Origin: Oscillospiraceae bacterium
GTDB lineage: Bacteria > Bacillota > Clostridia > Oscillospirales > Ruminococcaceae
Assembly: GCA_017461245.1 (NCBI GenBank)
Contig: JAFTYW010000022.1
Location: 1 to 61,901, forward strand
DNA length: 61,901 nt
Reading direction: 5' to 3'
Shown piece by piece: positions 13,021-56,906 of the stretch (the stretch's first letter is position 1; every line of letters starts with the position of its first letter). The position numbers and the translations under genes were made by a program. The notes under the pieces are model-generated. The model saw only the letters and a program-made list of their open reading frames with translations, was not told where the DNA came from and did not search any database.

Positions 13021-13055
13021 AAAAGGATATGAGGGGTTTTTCCTCATATCCTTTT
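13021..13055. terminator. Terminator between RHH and replication genes
   Basis: A 14-base stem (AAAAGGATATGAGG / CCTCATATCCTTTT) with T-run. Confidence 0.8.
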
Positions 13056-13130
13056 TTTCTCTTATGTGAAAATTCTCTTTTGGGTAGTCCGTCTTTCATT
13101 CTTATTAAAAAGATTGAAAGGGGGCAGTAT

Positions 13131-14429
13131 ATGAACATTTACGAGGTTCTTTTTCCACCCAATAGTGAATTTCCCGAAACAGTACATTTCGCCGTTATGA
13201 CAAAGGATAAAAAACTTAAAACTATCGCCTATGCCGATTTAGAACACCTACAAGAACAAGTTAAGAAAATCAAGATTAGAAAATCGCTTGATTACTACCT
13301 AACTTGTAACACCATAAAAAAATACCAAAAACGAAATGCAGATAATGTGCTTGGGTTTCATTCCTTGGTTTTAGATTTTGATATACACAATGCAGAAGCC
13401 ACAGAGCGAGAACAAATTATAAGTTCTTTATTATGGCGCTTAAAACGAGATTTATATGACATTAAACCACCGTTCCAAATTCCAAAGCCCGTAGTGTTGA
13501 ATCTAACGGGGAGAGGTCTCCAAATGTGGTATGCGCTTGAACCAACATCAGCACGGTTAGAGTTCCTTTATAGAAAAGCAAAGGAATACTTAATTTTGAT
13601 ATACGAGGCATTTTTAAGCGAATACCCCGAACTTGAAGCAAACATTACGATTGACCGTGTTGCAAGTGGTAATATGTGTGGGTTGTATCGTATGTTTTCA
13701 ACTTACAATACAAAAACGGGAACACGAACAAAAATGATACGATTACACGACAAGCGCATTGACCTAAACACACTTATAGAGGAATTGTCGGAAAATGAGG
13801 TTATACAGGAACACTTACAACAAAAGGAAGAGCGAAAACAAAATACACCGAAACTTAACAATGATTATATACTTACCGAGCCAAAAAATAACGGTGCAGC
13901 GTTGCACTTAAAAAGGTTGGGTATAATACGACAGTTAGCGATTGAACGAGAGGATAATATAGGAGAACGAGATATTATGTTGTTTCTTGCCTACAATTCA
14001 GCGAAACAATGTATGCCGATAGAAGAGGCAAAAAAGATATGCAGAGAAATCAATAATACATTTTCCGAACCCCTAAAAGATATTGAGTATCTGTTTAGGA
14101 ATAGCAAAACATATAAAATCAAAACAGAAACTTTTTGCGAGTGGTTGAATCTTGATGTAAACACCGTTAAGATAAGCACACCCAATTTAACAAGAGATAT
14201 TCAAAGGAAGATAAACAAGGAAGAGCGAGAACAGAAAAAGACCGAAGCCGTGAAGATGTTAAAAGAGGGACAGACCATAAAAGAGGTTGCAGAGAAAACG
14301 GAGTTGTCCTTTTCAACCGTCAGTAGATTATCGGGACTACTCCCGAAAGTGAAAAAACAAAAGGAATGGGAAAAATTAGGTATCAGCAAGGCGACCTACT
14401 ACCGACAGAAAAAGAAACTTAACAACTGA
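13131..14429 (+). CDS. Primase-like replication protein of the element
   Basis: The 432-residue protein looks like an archaeo-eukaryotic-type primase or RepB-like replication protein. Asp82-Phe-Asp84 (LVLDFDIH) provides a DxD metal site, and the segments LTGRGLQMWYAL and ITIDRVASGNMCGLYRMF fit the later family motifs. The C-terminus has a helix-turn-helix (TIKEVAEKTELSFSTVSRLSG) and a second short one (LGISKATYYRQ). The start at 13131 follows AAAGGGGG; earlier in-frame codons lack a binding site and cross the terminator stem. It would prime or initiate replication of the excised circle. Confidence 0.65.
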   Translation: MNIYEVLFPPNSEFPETVHFAVMTKDKKLKTIAYADLEHLQEQVKKIKIRKSLDYYLTCNTIKKYQKRNADNVLGFHSLVLDFDIHNAEATEREQIISSLLWRLKRDLYDIKPPFQIPKPVVLNLTGRGLQMWYALEPTSARLEFLYRKAKEYLILIYEAFLSEYPELEANITIDRVASGNMCGLYRMFSTYNTKTGTRTKMIRLHDKRIDLNTLIEELSENEVIQEHLQQKEERKQNTPKLNNDYILTEPKNNGAALHLKRLGIIRQLAIEREDNIGERDIMLFLAYNSAKQCMPIEEAKKICREINNTFSEPLKDIEYLFRNSKTYKIKTETFCEWLNLDVNTVKISTPNLTRDIQRKINKEEREQKKTEAVKMLKEGQTIKEVAEKTELSFSTVSRLSGLLPKVKKQKEWEKLGISKATYYRQKKKLNN

Positions 14430-14648: not shown

Positions 14649-14677
14649 TTGCAAAAAATATTGAAATGTGGTATTAT
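14649..14677 (+). promoter_or_regulatory. Promoter of structured RNA, copy A
   Basis: TTGCAA at 14649-14654, 17-base spacer, TATTAT at 14672-14677. The start would be at about 14684, right at the first base of the closing stem. Confidence 0.7.
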
Positions 14678-14683
14678 ATGAAC

Positions 14684-14856
14684 ATACCACATCACAACTT
14701 AATTATAATAGACTATTTATCTATATTTAGGAGAACACTACCTTGGTAAAAGGTGTTCTCTCTATTCTCCTATGTGGGTAAATAGTTTCGGTGTGATGTG
14801 GTAGTCTAACCGAGGGAAACACTTTTTCGGCACACTCTTCGGGGTGTGCTTTTTTA
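14684..14856 (+). ncRNA. Structured leader or small RNA, copy A (before SLOG gene)
   Basis: About 173 nt, starting at a promoter and ending in an intrinsic terminator (GCACAC 14830-14835, GTGTGC 14844-14849, T-run to 14856). The closing stem is 14685-14695 with 14793-14803 (11 bp). Inside are stem 14710-14719 with 14779-14788, stem 14728-14733 with 14767-14772, and an apical hairpin 14731-14738 with 14753-14760, loop containing TTGGTAAAA. The same architecture with different stem sequences but a conserved loop is at 51102-51243, which is compensatory evidence for the fold. The family is not identified. Confidence 0.75.
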
Positions 14857-14869
14857 TTGAGGTGTGTTT

Positions 14870-15262
14870 ATGTTCAAAAAGAAATTACCCACAAAAAGAG
14901 TTGTAATTGCAGGGTGCAGAGATTATAATAATTATGACGAGGCAAAACCCTATATTGATTATTGCTTATCAAATGTCCGAAAAGAAAACAATATAGTTAT
15001 CGTTTCGGGTTGTGCAAGTGGCGCTGATGCTATCGGCGAAAGATATGCAGAAGAAAACGGGTTTGAGGTTGAAAAATATCCTGCTGATTGGAAAACCTAC
15101 GGGAGAAGCGCAGGACCAAAGCGAAACAAACAAATGGCAGAGGTCAGCGATTATGTTATTTGCTTTTGGGACGAGAAAAGTGCAGGTACACGGTCAATGA
15201 TTTCTTATGCCCGTAAGTGTGGAAAGCCCGTCAAAATTAAAAAGATATTTCAAGACGGTTAA
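14870..15262 (+). CDS. SLOG-superfamily (DUF2493-like) protein
   Basis: The 130-residue protein has the Rossmann-like nucleotide fold of the SLOG/YpsA group: RVVIAGCRDYNN at the start, the glycine-rich IVSGCASGADAIGERYA, and the later GPKRNKQMAEVSDYVICFWD and GTRSMISYARKCGKPV. SLOG proteins bind or make nucleotide derivatives and often occur in mobile or defence islands. The start at 14870 follows GAGGTG, which also contains the GTG at 14864 that could be read as an earlier start. It sits just after the terminator of the structured RNA, so expression may need terminator read-through. A partner gene follows 15 bases later. Confidence 0.8.
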   Translation: MFKKKLPTKRVVIAGCRDYNNYDEAKPYIDYCLSNVRKENNIVIVSGCASGADAIGERYAEENGFEVEKYPADWKTYGRSAGPKRNKQMAEVSDYVICFWDEKSAGTRSMISYARKCGKPVKIKKIFQDG

Positions 15263-49264: not shown

Positions 49265-50575
49265 TTATTTTTCGCAGATCTCGGTCTTGCCGCCCATATA
49301 GGCTCTCAGAGCCTCGGGAATTCTGATCTTAAACTTCTCACCGTCAAACTCGAGGTTGTTCTCTAAAAATGCAATTAACATTCTCGGGGGAGCAACAACT
49401 GTGTTGTTTAAGGTATGGGCAAGGTACTTACTGCCGTCCTCGCCGCGAACTCTGATTCCAAGTCTTCTTGCCTGAGCATCGCCAAGATTGGAGCAAGAGC
49501 AGACCTCAAAGTACTTCTGCTGTTTAGGTGACCAAGCCTCGACGTCGTAGCTCTTTACCTTAAGGTCAGCAAGGTCTCCCGAGCAGCACTCTAAGGTGCG
49601 AACGGGGATATCGAGCGAGCGGAACAGCTCTACAGAGTAGCTCCACATCTTGTTAAACCACTCCATACTCTCCTCAGGCTTGCAGATAACTATCATTTCC
49701 TGCTTTTCAAACTGGTGAATTCTGTAAATACCGCGCTCCTCAATGCCGTGCGCTCCCTTTTCTTTTCTGAAACAGGGGGAATAGCTGGTTAAGGTAAGGG
49801 GCAGAGAGGTTTCGGGGGTGATGGTGTCGATAAATTTGCCTATCATCGAGTGCTCGCTGGTGCCGATAAGATAGAGGTCCTCGCCCTCGATCTTATACAT
49901 CATAGCGTCCATTTCCTCAAAGCTCATAACGCCTGTTACAACGTTGCTTCTTATCATAAAGGGCGGCACGCAGTAGGTAAAGCCCTTGTCTATCATAAAG
50001 TCACGTGCATAGGAGAGAACTGCGCTGTGAAGCCTTGCAATGTCTCCCATAAGATAGTAAAAGCCCTCGCCTGCGACCTTTCCTGCGGCTTCCTTGTCGA
50101 TGCCGTTAAAGTGAGCCATAATGTCGGTGTGGTAGGGAATCTCAAAGTCTACCTTTGTCTGCTCGCCGTACTGCTGAACCTCAACATTTTCCTCGTCGCT
50201 TGCGCCCAAAGGCACCGACTCGTCAATAATGTTGGGAATCTTCATCATGGTTTCTTTAAGCTCAGCCTCATACTCAGCCTCGAGCTTTTCAAGCTCGGCA
50301 AGGCGGGCGGCCTGGGTTGAAACCAGCTCGCGCATCTTCATAGCCTCGTCCTTTTTGCCCTGAGACATGAGAGCGCCGATCTCGCGGCTTATCTTATTTC
50401 TGTTAGCTCTAAGTTCACTCGCCTCGCTGATTGCGGCACGCTTTTTTTCGTCAAGCTCGATTGCCTTGTCAACTAGCGGAAGCTTTGCGTCCTTAAACTT
50501 TTTTTTGATGTTTTCTTTAACTATTTCGGGGTTTTCCCTCACAAATTTAATGTCAAGCACTTTATTTTCCTCCAA
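49265..50575 (-). CDS. serS: Seryl-tRNA synthetase
   Basis: The 436-residue class II enzyme has the coiled-coil N-terminus (residues 25-110) and motifs FRKEKGAHGIEERGIYRIHQFEKQEM (motif 2) and GSKYLAHTLNNTVVAPPRMLIAFLEN (motif 3). It charges tRNA-Ser and probably tRNA-Sec if present. Length is standard. No T-box leader is visible. The start codon at 50575 is poorly supported by a ribosome binding site. Confidence 0.96.
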   Translation of the reverse strand: MEENKVLDIKFVRENPEIVKENIKKKFKDAKLPLVDKAIELDEKKRAAISEASELRANRNKISREIGALMSQGKKDEAMKMRELVSTQAARLAELEKLEAEYEAELKETMMKIPNIIDESVPLGASDEENVEVQQYGEQTKVDFEIPYHTDIMAHFNGIDKEAAGKVAGEGFYYLMGDIARLHSAVLSYARDFMIDKGFTYCVPPFMIRSNVVTGVMSFEEMDAMMYKIEGEDLYLIGTSEHSMIGKFIDTITPETSLPLTLTSYSPCFRKEKGAHGIEERGIYRIHQFEKQEMIVICKPEESMEWFNKMWSYSVELFRSLDIPVRTLECCSGDLADLKVKSYDVEAWSPKQQKYFEVCSCSNLGDAQARRLGIRVRGEDGSKYLAHTLNNTVVAPPRMLIAFLENNLEFDGEKFKIRIPEALRAYMGGKTEICEK

Positions 50576-50717
50576 ACAGAGATATATATGTTAGTTTAAC
50601 ACATTTTTTCACCGTAATCAAGATAATTTTGCAGTTTATTGCACGAGTATATTCTTTTTTGCGGAACGACACATAGGTCGTTCCCTACATAATTACATTG
50701 AATGTTGGATTTACACC

Positions 50718-50828
50718 GTAGGGGCGTGTTGCCGAAGCGCTCGCAGAGCGAGATGAAGCGAGGCATAAACGGGTGCAGCGGTCGAAAATTTGAGCAAAAA
50801 GCGAAAAATTTTCGGGCACCGCAAACGG
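50718..50828 (+). repeat. 110-bp intergenic repeat, copy 3 of 3
   Basis: Copy of 16215-16324 with high similarity. The region 50590-51060 carries this plus GTAGGGGCG inverted repeats at 50957-50980 and no gene. Confidence 0.75.
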
Positions 50829-51071
50829 AGGGCCTCTGTGCCCTCCCGCATATACGGAATGGATAAATCCATTCCCTACAAAAACAAATATAAAACGGCA
50901 CGTCGAAAATCGCCGTGCCATACAAAATTTAAAACATACGTTAATTTTAATTTGTAGGGGCGCTTCACGAAGCGCCCGCAAAAAACAACTCGGCTATAAA
51001 AAGGGACGACCATAAGAAAAAGCCATAGGTCGCCCGTTTTTGTTTTACAAATTATTGCTACAATTTAAATA

Positions 51072-51100
51072 TTTACAAATAAATTCGGGTATGATATAAT
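51072..51100 (+). promoter_or_regulatory. Promoter of structured RNA, copy B
   Basis: TTTACA (51072-51077), 17-base spacer, TATAAT (51095-51100). The start would be about 51107, again at the base of the closing stem. Confidence 0.75.
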
Positions 51101-51101
51101 A

Positions 51102-51243
51102 ACTATACCACACATTTTAATATGCACATTGTCAGGGAATACTATTGGTAAAAATGTATTCCCTCTCCTGACTTTGTGCAGAATGTGTGGTAACATTGAG
51201 GGGTGCGTTTTTCGGTGCGTCTCTTGATGGGGCGCACTTTTTT
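51102..51243 (+). ncRNA. Structured leader or small RNA, copy B
   Basis: Closing stem 51106-51116 with 51182-51192 (11 bp); second stem 51123-51128 with 51175-51180; third 51131-51136 with 51167-51172; apical hairpin 51135-51142 with 51156-51163 with loop containing TTGGTAAAA. Terminator stem 51215-51219 with 51233-51237, then T-run to 51243. All stems match copy A at 14684 in position but with changed bases, so base pairing is conserved. Confidence 0.75.
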
Positions 51244-51269
51244 ATTTATATACATAAGGGAGAAAGCTA

Positions 51270-51518
51270 ATGATTAGAGATGTCACGGGGACAAAACTTA
51301 CGCCTGGGAATTTGGGCAGGGACTGCTTTGGTAACGGCAGTCACTTTGATAAAAAAGGCAGGCGGATAGAGTGCTGTTGTGATGAGTGCGGATATTATAT
51401 GTGCTGTATCGAGGAGCACAGCGAAAAAGAGTGCGAATCTTGCGAATATTTTTTCTGTCCGCGTTGCAAAAACAAGTTTATTTCATTTTTTAAATTTCTT
51501 ATGTTTTGGAAATGGTGA
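51270..51518 (+). CDS. Small Cys-rich protein after the structured RNA
   Basis: The 82-residue protein has many Cys: GRDCFGNG, IECCCDECGYYMCC, KECESCEYFFCPRC, and a hydrophobic C-terminus (FISFFKFLMFWKW). The LTPGNLGRDCFGNG motif resembles small Cys-rich proteins that I recall as repeated in Clostridia, but I cannot give a function. It is preceded by the second copy of the structured RNA. Zinc binding is likely; a membrane tail is possible. Confidence 0.7.
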   Translation: MIRDVTGTKLTPGNLGRDCFGNGSHFDKKGRRIECCCDECGYYMCCIEEHSEKECESCEYFFCPRCKNKFISFFKFLMFWKW

Positions 51519-51622
51519 ATATAAAAACGGTGATTCGTGAATCGTCCCTACAAAATTATATTTATTATATGCATTTATATTGTGTGATGGGCGAAGCAGA
51601 AAGCATTATATTTTTAAAATGA

Positions 51623-51652
51623 AAAACCCCGTGAGGCAATCACGAGGTTTTA
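51623..51652. terminator. Terminator between Cys-rich gene and gyrA
   Basis: AAAACCCCGTGA / TCACGAGGTTTT stem with loop GGCAA, between convergent genes. Confidence 0.6.
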
Positions 51653-51722
51653 CTATTTGTAATAAATTTGTTTTATATTACAATTTGTTATTGATTTTAC
51701 GGGGCGGGGAATAGGATTTTTC

Positions 51723-54347
51723 TTATTCCTCGGTTGCTTCGACCTCAGCCTCGTCATCGTCGGGAGTTTCGTCGGCTTGAGCGGTAGCCTTTGCATCCTC
51801 AGCGGCGGCCTCTAACTCCTGAGCCTTAAGTTCTTCCTCAGAAAGCTTTTCGACCTGCTCGGTTTCGGCTTCCTCATCGTGCTCGACGTTGGCAAATGCT
51901 GCAACCTTGCAACCCTCGTCTACGCGCATTACGCGGACGCCGAGGGTGTTTCTCGAGGAAACATTGATGTCAGACAAACGGATGCGGATGATGACGCCGT
52001 TATCAGAGATCATCATAAGGTCGTCTTCGTCATTTACGCTGCGAACGCCGCAAACCTCGCCGCGCTTTTCGTCGGTGCGGTAATTGATAACGCCCGAGCC
52101 GCCTCTCGACTGGACTCTGTACTGGTCGGGATCGCACTTTTTGCCATAGCCTTTGTCGGTGATGGTTACGAGGTACTCGCCGTCTTTAACAACGGTGAAG
52201 GCAACGACATTATCGTCGCCGCGAAGTCTGATTCCGCGAACGCCGGTTGCAGTTCTCGACATAGCGCGGACATCGCTCTCGTTAAATCTTACGGCTTTAC
52301 CCTTGCGGGTTGCGATAAGCAGAGTGTCCTCGCCGCCTGTAAGCCTTACGGCGCAGAGGCGGTCATCCTCTCGCAAGTTCAGAGCAATAAGTCCGTTCTT
52401 GCGGATGTTTCTATACTGAGTAAGTTTAGTTCTCTTAACGATACCCTTTTCGGTTGCCATAACGAGATATTTATCCTCGTCGTCAAGGTTTGATAAGTGT
52501 ATCATAGCGGCAATTCTCTCGCCGTTTTCGATAGGCAGTAGGTTTACGATATTAGTTCCCTTTGCAGTTCTGCTGCTCTCGGGAATCTCGAAGCACCTAA
52601 GTCTAAACATCTTGCCGCTCTCGGTGATAAAGAGAACGTAATCGTGGCTAGATGCGACGAACATTTCCTCAACAAAGTCGTCCTCGCGTCTTGTCATACC
52701 CGAAACGCCTCGGCCGCTTCTGCCTTGAGTTCTGTAGGTGTCGGCAGGGATTCTCTTGATGTAACCGAAGTGGGTTAAGGTTACAACGCTGTTTTCAACG
52801 GGGATAAGGTCCTCAATATCGACCTCGCCGCTGATGTTCTCGATTGCGGTGCGTCTTTCGTCGCCGTACTTATTGGAAATAGCGGTAAGCTCTTCCTTGA
52901 TAATGGCAAGAACGAGGTTTTCGTCATTAAGAATGGCAAGAAGCTCTTCGATCTTCTTTCTGATTGCGGCAAGCTCTTCTTCGATCTTATTGCGCTCCAT
53001 ACCTGTTAAGCGGCCAAGCTGCATCTGAACGATTGCTGTTGCTTGAACGTCGGAGAGGTTAAAGCGCTCCATAAGGGCTTCCTTACCCTCGGGGATGCTC
53101 TTTGAGCGGCGCAGTATCGAGACGACCTCGTCAATATTATCCTGCGCAATAACGTAACCCTCTAAAATGTGGGCTCTGTCCTGCGCCTTCTTTAAGTCAA
53201 ACTTGGTTCTGCGAACGATAACTTCCTTCTGGAAGTCGATATAATAGTTCATCATTTCCTTTAAGGAAAGGACTTTGGGCTGACCGTCGCAGATGGCCAG
53301 CATAATTGCGCCGAATGTAATCTGAAGCTGGGTGTATGAGTAAAGCTGATTTAAAACTACCTGCGGATTTGCCTCGCGCTTAAGCTCGATAACAACTCTC
53401 AGTCCGTCTCTGTCGGACTCGTCGCGTAGGTCGGAGATGCCCTCAATTCTCTTATTCTTGATAAGCTCGGCAATCGACTGGATAAGGCGAGCCTTGTTTA
53501 CCTGGTAGGGAATTTCGGTTACAACTATCTTAAACTTTCCGCTCTTATCTTCCTCAATTTCTGCCTTGGAGCGCAGAATTATCTTGCCGCGGCCTGTTGC
53601 ATAAGCGGCGCGGATTCCCGCTCTGCCCATAACTATGCCGCCTGTGGGGAAGTCGGGTCCTTTTACAAACTCCATTAGATCGGCAAGCTCAGCGTCGGGG
53701 TTGTCGATTAAATAACAGATGCCGTCGCATACCTCTTTTAAATTGTGGGGCGGGATATTGGTAGCCATACCAACGGCAATACCGTCCGAACCGTTAACTA
53801 AGAGGTTAGGAAAACGAGAGGGGAGAACAGAGGGCTCGCGAAGTCTGTCGTCGTAGTTTGAAACGAAATCGACGGTGTCCTTGTCGATATCGGCAAGAAG
53901 CTCCATTGAGAGCTTGCTCATTCTCGACTCGGTGTATCTGTATGCAGCGGCGGGGTCGCCGTCTACCGAACCGAAGTTTCCGTGACCGTCAACGAGCGGG
54001 TAACGCAGAGAAAAGTCCTGCGCCATACGGACCATTGCGTCGTAGACCGCCGCGTCGCCGTGTGGGTGGTATCTACCCAGAACAGAACCTACTGTGTCGG
54101 CGCACTTACGGTAGGGCTTGTCGGGGTACAGAGAATTTTCATTCATTGTATACATAATTCTTCTGTGTACCGGTTTAAGTCCGTCTCGCACGTCGGGCAG
54201 GGCACGGCCGATAATGACCGACATTGAATAGTCGAGATAAGATTTTTTCATCTCGCTTACAATGTCGACCTGATGAATGGTCTGCATAGAGTCGTCTCTG
54301 AAATACTGCTCGTCGCTGTTGTGATTAGCTTTGTCTTGCTTACTCAT
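51723..54347 (-). CDS. gyrA: DNA gyrase subunit A
   Basis: The 874-residue protein is full-length: the catalytic Tyr138 ([11 protein letters not shown]), the quinolone region [13 protein letters not shown], and six-bladed C-terminal domain with the GyrA-box-like [10 protein letters not shown]. It has an acidic tail (Glu/Asp/Ala rich). Where most enzymes have Ser at the first quinolone contact (E. coli 83), this one has Ala99; the second contact Asp103 is kept. The start at 54347 follows AAAGGA; a GTG two codons before is too near the site. Confidence 0.96.
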
Positions 54348-54399
54348 TTGCACTTTTTCCTTTTCTTAAATTTACATTTTGTATATTTAAATGCAAATA

Positions 54400-54924
54400 T
54401 TACTTTTTGTTGTAATTTTTATAGTTGATTTGAGGGTTTTGCTGTAAAAACCTGTCGAAACATTCCTTTTGAGCCTCGCTTAAAAAGCTTTTGGGAACAG
54501 AGAACATTCTCTTTTCTGCCTCAAAATATATGAAATTCTCTGTTTCTGAGATCCTTGCTCTGCTGAGATACAGCTCGGTGTTTGTGTCGCCGTTTGAAAC
54601 TGTGACCTTATCGACATAAAGGGTCAGTTTAAAGTTCTTTCCCTCGCCGAATTTGGCGCTCATATCCTTTGCCTGCGTTCTCGGAGTGAAAACTATAAAG
54701 GCAATGCATATAAGGCAAACAGCAATCATAAACAGCTTCATAGAGTCAAAGCTGATCATCACATCGACTGCAAAGAGCAGAGAAATAGCTGAAAGTACCG
54801 CAATCTGCGCTATGGTTTTTGTTCTGGACTTAACAGAGTGGTGCTCTAAAATAGAGGCTTCTGCGCTCTTGCTGTTTAAGGAATACTCGATCTCAAAAAG
54901 GGGAGCGGTCATATTTTCCTGCAT
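54400..54924 (-). CDS. YcxB-like membrane protein between gyrA and gyrB
   Basis: The 174-residue protein has two membrane helices (about 40-60 and 62-82) and a soluble C-terminal part with LYVDKVTVSNGDTNTELYLSRARISETENFIYFEAEKRMFSVPKSFLS, which matches the YcxB-like pattern. It lies between gyrA and gyrB, close to both; function unknown. Confidence 0.75.
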   Translation of the reverse strand: MQENMTAPLFEIEYSLNSKSAEASILEHHSVKSRTKTIAQIAVLSAISLLFAVDVMISFDSMKLFMIAVCLICIAFIVFTPRTQAKDMSAKFGEGKNFKLTLYVDKVTVSNGDTNTELYLSRARISETENFIYFEAEKRMFSVPKSFLSEAQKECFDRFLQQNPQINYKNYNKK

Positions 54925-54935
54925 TTTTCTGCTCC

Positions 54936-56906
<1,971 letters not shown>

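Follow-up and report, generated by a model that had tools for sequence, protein, structure and literature searches.

The window, that is, the whole 61,901-nt stretch of the Oscillospiraceae bacterium contig JAFTYW010000022.1 that was analysed, holds two copies of a structured RNA element, each on the forward strand and each in front of an open reading frame (ORF; Table 1). Copy A, which spans 14649-14858 from its promoter through its T run, precedes an ORF of the SLOG (YspA/YAcAr) type; immediately upstream of it lies a 466-aa ORF with a C-terminal helix-turn-helix (13029-14429). Copy B (51072-51243) has its parts in the same order as copy A and precedes a small Cys-rich ORF; its surroundings (49265-56903), from serS to gyrA/gyrB, are chromosomal.

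The original prediction, made from the sequence of the window, described a promoter, an 11-bp closing stem, two inner stems, an apical hairpin with TTGGTAAAA as its loop and a terminator just before the SLOG gene, as well as a second copy at 51072. We found all of these parts in place, together with a GGUAAAA strand, but two of them needed correction. The closing stem (P1) of copy A has 12 bp, and TTGGTAAAA, which is indeed present in both copies, is in most relatives not a plain loop but the 3′ strand of the apical hairpin. The computed folds of copies A and B gave z-scores of -7.35 and -7.41, respectively, against 200 dinucleotide shuffles, none of which equalled the native fold. By itself TTGGTAAAA is without significance (three occurrences in the window, 1.35 expected), and promoter-like sequences near copy A are at shuffle level (one found, mean 1.0), so that the promoter call rests on the family comparison described below. 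The start of copy A was fixed by hand at 14685 in the scripts.

Table 1. Features of the four RNA copies of the host genome and of the ORFs behind copies A and B (positions of copies A and B are those of the window).
Feature	Position	Strand	Remarks
Copy A promoter	14649..14677	+	-35 TTGCAA (14649-14654), 17-nt spacer, TG-G-TATTAT (extended -10; TATTAT 14672-14677, TG upstream); P1 7 nt downstream
Copy A P1, 5′ strand	14685..14696	+	partner 14792-14803; P1 covaries across the family
Copy A AAUA	14707..14710	+	unpaired P1-P2 interval; many relatives have a short bulge here
Copy A P2, 5′ strand	14712..14719	+	partner 14779-14786, computed fold
Copy A P3, 5′ strand	14728..14735	+	partner 14765-14772, computed fold
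Copy A TTGGTAAAA	14743-14751	+	
Copy A UUGGUAAAA with segment a	14743..14757	+	segment a AAAAGGUGUU, 14748-14757
Copy A P1, 3′ strand	14792..14803	+	fold and covariance model
Copy A putative antiterminator, 5′ strand	14810..14816	+	CCGAGGG; 7 bp with 14836-14842
Copy A segment a′	14818..14827	+	AACACUUUUU; complements segment a
Copy A intrinsic terminator and T run	14829..14858	+	hairpin 14829-14850
SLOG (YspA/YAcAr) ORF behind copy A	14870..15262	+	ATG at 14870; Pfam PF10686, E 1.9e-14
Copy B promoter	51072..51100	+	TTTACA, 17 nt, TG-A-TATAAT; 5 nt to P1
Copy B rod	51106..51192	+	fold and covariance model
Copy B P1	51106-51116/51182-51192	+	
Copy B P2	51123-51128/51175-51180	+	
Copy B P3	51131-51136/51167-51172	+	
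Copy B apical stem	51137-51142/51156-51161	+	
Copy B TTGGTAAAA	51145-51153	+	
Copy B segment a	51150..51158	+	AAAAAUGUA
Copy B putative antiterminator, 5′ strand	51194..51207	+	14 bp with 51216-51229, fold with P1 blocked
Copy B segment a′	51204..51212	+	UGCGUUUUU
Copy B intrinsic terminator and T run	51214..51243	+	
Small Cys-rich ORF behind copy B	51270..51518	+	similar ORFs behind RNA copies in L119 and L074
Copy C	G000:C26:26317-26478 (L015)		precedes a small membrane protein ORF
Copy D	G000:C19:58454-58633 (L197)		precedes an ORF reading like a lipoprotein

A covariance model built from copy B alone matched copy A in the window (E 8.6e-7, with the alignment one stem out) and, in a genome-wide search in which copy A was absent from the matches, revealed a third copy, copy C (E 2.5e-4). 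P1 of copy C differs from that of copy B at several positions with the pairing intact; the likeness of the two is thus structural as well as sequence-based. A MAFFT alignment of copies A and B was wrong and was discarded. A later covariance model matched copies B and A in the window at 6.8e-23 and 1.4e-11, respectively, and found no further copies there (next best E 0.23). The host genome contains four good copies, A to D, and two weak matches, one of which is copy C on the opposite strand.

The family extends well beyond the host. Model R2 (copies A, B and C) matched 44 of 396 genomes of the same family (E<=0.1), and model R3 (59 sequences) reached further: in the order it matched 141 of 394 genomes, in 74 of 169 genera (E<=1e-3), and in the class 99 of 391 genomes, in 57 of 223 genera (E<=1e-4). 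In a phylum-wide sample (n=398), used as a negative control in which at least 14 genomes share the family, order or class of the host yet lack a copy, the host genome was the sole match (E<=1e-4). An exact-pattern search of 197 family genomes matched only copies A and B of the window, the pattern being too rigid, while a pattern scan of named genomes matched at least 120 stretches. The titles among the 80 loci listed include uncultured Clostridia, Oscillospiraceae, Ruminococcus and Ruminiclostridium, many from the ruminant gut; these 80 loci were picked by pattern matching to the conserved 3′ half, whose conservation is therefore inflated. Deeper scoring of 14 carriers, chosen mostly for high match numbers, gave 1 to 29 matches each, and since searches over more than 40 genomes scored seven or eight candidates per genome, copy counts from them are lower bounds. 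Within a single genus (G901, G984, G1018) matches also range from 1 to 29, making fast gain or loss of copies possible. Units can also be clustered: four stand in tandem, about 54 nt apart, in L137 (886-1667, - strand), and tandem pairs occur in L018, L020, L090 and L110. Judged by these homology searches, copies A and B are members of a large multicopy RNA family of gut Clostridia; the predicted family is real and larger than had been supposed.

The family is absent from Rfam 15, and it is to Rfam 15, rather than to print, that we limit this claim. At the gathering score nothing in the whole window matched; at E<=10 copies A and B gave weak hits far under the cut-off (best E 0.67 and 0.052, respectively), and at E<=1 all 14 hits in 20 loci of relatives lay outside the elements. 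The original prediction, which could match no named family, thus holds on this point, as it does in setting aside the T-box and 6S RNA: T-box leaders, like the c-di-GMP riboswitch classes and 6S RNA (RF00013), gave no covariance-model match at the copies, and the T-box and the remaining Rfam families were ruled out on the same grounds. That the element is 6S RNA or a relative of it might be suggested by its rod-like form, its similar size and a start at about the closing stem. The genome, however, has a separate 6S match (C35:147742-147937; 46.5 bits against a cut-off of 46.4, E 2.3e-8), copies A and B give no 6S hit even at E<=10, and the element occurs in many copies, mostly ahead of an ORF; we rejected this explanation as exceedingly improbable. 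A 2017 collection is said to comprise 224 motifs. The portions of the literature covered by our search name no such RNA, nor does any of six family motif strings occur in the text searched; the thousands of candidates of Fremin and Bhatt 2021 (PMC8040213) are placed in the supplements of that paper and lie outside this comparison.

For the pairing tests, 145 hits (34 of 38, with 4 weak or antisense ones left out, plus 20 and 91) were reduced to 114 members by dropping 5 duplicates, 24 hits without the motif G[GA][UC]A[AG]AA, one without a T tail and one false hit. Conservation of this motif among the 114 is therefore selected, and so is the P1 percentage of analysis A8, from which nine further members that fell short of 8 P1 pairs out of 10 and, by hand, two rows with a misplaced P1 were dropped. 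All pairing and covariation statistics below ignore kinship among members. In 75 distinct rows the whole structure shows 96 double-change cells, against 15.4 in shuffled and at most 28 in slid alignments; double changes fall in 8 of the 10 P1 pairs, and the original prediction of a structured RNA with covarying homologues, to be sought with a covariance model in Clostridia, is borne out. The apical strand fits its own local 5′ strand better than permuted partners do (-9.55 against -7.14, none of 500 permutations as good).

Beyond the rod, two alternative pairings emerge. The first joins the 3′ strand of P1 and the following linker (canonically CGCAGCAAUCGGAGCU) to the terminator, at its apex and 3′ arm (AGCUUCGGCUGCG), and would form an antiterminator. 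The energy of this linker/terminator duplex averages -17.61 in 107 distinct members against -16.09 after permutation, and -17.00 against -14.37 in 45 divergent members, with none of 1000 permutations as good in either case. In the folds it often extends to a long hairpin with the loop UUUUUCGG. In 51 distinct near-canonical rows of fixed length, 92.2% of cells over its 17 pairs are paired, against 27.7-42.8% when slid and 90.1% when shuffled, and 20 cells carry double changes against 8.6 when shuffled; a slide by -1, however, gives 23, which the true register does not exceed. The support from these rows is therefore mainly one of register, and the case for antiterminator covariation rests more on the duplex permutation test. 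The terminator itself has 8 double-change cells against 1.7 when shuffled. A weak hairpin between CCGAGGG and UUUUUCGG, which is included in models R1, R2 and R3, was dropped as a conserved stem because it competes with the antiterminator.

The second pairing (a.a′) joins the apical AAAARUGCA to UGCAUUUUU, just before the terminator. Among the motif-bearing members, which these tests cover, it scores -8.14 against -6.07 when permuted, and -7.26 against -3.57 in 19 divergent members, again with none of 1000 permutations as good; double changes occur in 4 of its 9 pairs in the 75 rows. Since the UGCA-pairing half of UGCAUUUUU lies in the stretch used by the antiterminator, the two pairings partly exclude each other. 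The covariation indicates that a mutually exclusive terminator and antiterminator have been kept in the family, more weakly in the case of copy A.

In computed folds without shuffle comparison (n=114), the antiterminator formed in 85 whole leaders and the terminator in 29; with the first 13 nt blocked the numbers were 91 and 23, and for the 3′ part alone 98 and 16. Most members thus favour the antiterminator with P1 intact, so that P1 by itself does not make the switch. Pseudoknots, of which a.a′ is one, are outside what the folding program can weigh. Copy B goes from the terminator to the antiterminator once its first 13 nt are blocked, and copy C adopts the antiterminator state with or without the block. 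Copy A, whose antiterminator has only 7 bp, keeps the terminator state even with P1 blocked; by these folds it may be mostly off, or different.

We then asked what lies behind the copies, using 139 distinct ones, of which 4 were too near a contig end. Behind 11 of the remaining 135 a second copy with its own terminator follows within 400 nt, and the other 124 were scored for ORFs (SD-like motif, 40 aa, or open at the contig end; this rule misplaced at least one start, in L141). In 78 of the 124 the T run is followed by a co-directional start codon at a distance of up to 30 nt, and in 111 at up to 100 nt, against 33 and 96, respectively, of 312 other intrinsic terminators of the same loci, which, unlike the RNA copies, had to keep a distance of 450 nt to contig ends. 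The family is mostly a leader RNA directly before an ORF.

Certain kinds of gene recur behind it. A homologue of the SLOG ORF (46% identity over 80 aa) stands about 17 nt behind the RNA copy of L141, the Cys-rich protein of copy B recurs in L119 and L074, and the ORF behind copy C has a C-terminus similar to that of an ORF in L120. By reading, the ORF of copy C encodes a superinfection-immunity plus SHOCT protein; both families are present among the downstream proteins scanned. Of 112 downstream proteins found, 70 begin with a hydrophobic helix by a crude hydrophobicity count without background. The 96 scanned (16 near-duplicates or fragments being left out) matched 62 Pfam families, with LRR variants accounting for several of these: LRR_5 was matched by 23 of the 96, and the 25 families listed of the 62 include SLH, CAP, dockerin, SHOCT, zinc ribbons, HTH and one superinfection-immunity protein. 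A scan of the same 96 for defence genes matched 23 families, 22 of them with a single member, and gave no theme. Without a common pathway, the downstream genes name no ligand.

These results bear on the idea that the copies are stand-alone, trans-acting small RNAs of about 140-175 nt, terminated, arrayed in tandem for dosage, and accompanied by ORFs that are incidental or have their own promoters. Each unit does have a promoter and a terminator, and tandem units exist (four in L137, and the second copies noted above), which a plain leader would not need. But the excess of nearby start codons over other terminators, the recurring kinds of gene and a linker whose sequence complements the terminator in its apex and 3′ arm, needless in a stand-alone RNA, all speak against it, and we regard it as unlikely. 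A small-RNA role is nevertheless conceivable, because the terminated leader would itself be an RNA of about 140-175 nt. A leader peptide was rejected, as an SD-like motif with a start codon occurs within the leader in just 18 of 114 members.

The promoter is part of the unit. A score of at least 9 of 12 was reached by 88 of 110 upstream regions (3.7% of shuffles), a 17-nt spacer is found in 94 and a TGn ahead of the -10 in 98, and the gap from the -10 to P1 is exactly 5 nt in 97 (5 in copy B, 7 in copy A). At such a near-fixed distance, transcription is expected to start at about the base of P1. Outside the stems, AATA is kept at the place of the AAUA of copy A in 82 of 114 members. A dispersed promoter cassette that merely sets a fixed level of read-through, senses nothing and has spread with accessory genes would account for this 5-nt gap and for the many copies, up to 29 per genome, before unrelated genes. 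The covariation of two largely exclusive pairings of one strand, however, and the conserved AAUA suggest regulation, and we hold such a sensorless attenuator to be very unlikely.

We consider it likely, on the sequence comparisons and the computed folds, that the family is a cis-acting transcription attenuator, organized as a promoter-plus-leader cassette, in which switching between terminator and antiterminator probably decides transcription of the gene behind the leader. RNA polymerase would start from the extended -10 promoter at about the base of P1, and the leader would fold into a long rod consisting of P1, the AAUA bulge, P2, P3 and an apical hairpin with GGUAAAARUGCA as its 3′ strand. 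The linker following P1 would then pair with the terminator apex and 3′ arm, and transcription would continue. Alternatively, AAAARUGCA would leave the apical hairpin and pair with UGCAUUUUU, removing part of the antiterminator and allowing the terminator to form. The simplest reading, whose direction we infer, is that the antiterminator corresponds to on and a.a′ to off, with the rod reading a putative signal that would decide between them. The parts, their complementarity and covariation, the coupling to ORFs and the distribution are all read from sequence. The best reading is thus a new, orphan-riboswitch-like class of transcription attenuator before secreted and accessory genes. The original prediction had the family and its absence from Rfam right; it missed the antiterminator, the a.a′ pairing, the position before ORFs and the spread in multiple copies through the class.

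A common signal is suggested by the large number of copies, the variety of targets and the AAUA kept outside stems; our first guess for it is a small ligand and our second a protein. Long rods that carry a conserved bulge and an apical strand, like this one, are usual protein targets; an antiterminator or repressor protein acting on the rod, a sub-case of the attenuator, is a possibility to which we give only limited credence. Cyclic di-GMP is an unlikely ligand, because 6 of 20 carrier genomes lack a match to the GGDEF domain (found in 14 of the 20, and in 8 of 14 control genomes); these six include one with 29 copies, two that are 100% complete and the host genome (88% complete). Tentatively, and with less than even confidence, we suggest that the family is a new class of riboswitch, responding to a signalling molecule distinct from c-di-GMP by way of the pseudoknot that the apical strand would form with the antiterminator region, and that its copies, up to 29 per genome, would set the repertoire of secreted and accessory genes in uncultured gut Clostridia.

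The search of mobile elements that had also been proposed gave no sign of the RNA in the viral and plasmid collections tried: one strict family pattern matched 0 viral contigs, and one member used as query matched no plasmid. Nine viral stretches with a loose pattern had predicted folds without the long rod and were taken as chance. The same query matched two unannotated records labelled Bacteriophage sp.; in one of them, MT835845.1 (L201), a copy precedes a lipoprotein-like ORF. The phage label of this record is doubtful, since ORFs in 5235 of its 16597 bases look bacterial chromosomal.

If the attenuator reading is true, the element is a cis-regulatory RNA, unlisted in Rfam 15, that gut Clostridia carry in many copies and across the class. 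The family precedes largely uncharacterized secreted (LRR_5, SLH, CAP, dockerin) and accessory genes; its signal, once found, would reveal what the carriers sense when altering their surface and would bring many unnamed genes under a common regulator. The two competing pairings open the mechanism to direct test.

Among known systems, T-box leaders likewise have an antiterminator and a terminator; the family differs from them in giving no Rfam match and in having no tRNA synthetase among the 25 listed of 62 downstream families. With 6S RNA it shares the rod and a closing stem at about the transcript start, but its copies precede ORFs and carry a putative antiterminator, and the 6S match of the genome is elsewhere. 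The c-di-GMP riboswitches (GEMM) occur in many copies per genome before varied genes, often for surface proteins, and so does the family; unlike them, it has no Rfam match, and 6 of its 20 carriers show no GGDEF domain. There is also a likeness in plan to transcription-terminating riboswitches, which generally consist of an aptamer, an antiterminator and a terminator. As in these, the family lies 5′ of ORFs, has a closing stem and an apparently exclusive antiterminator and terminator, and occurs in several copies per genome. In contrast to those listed, it is without an Rfam match, it has a second, competing pairing that comes from the apical strand of the rod, and an extended -10 promoter, at a near-fixed distance, belongs to its unit, which can stand in tandem.
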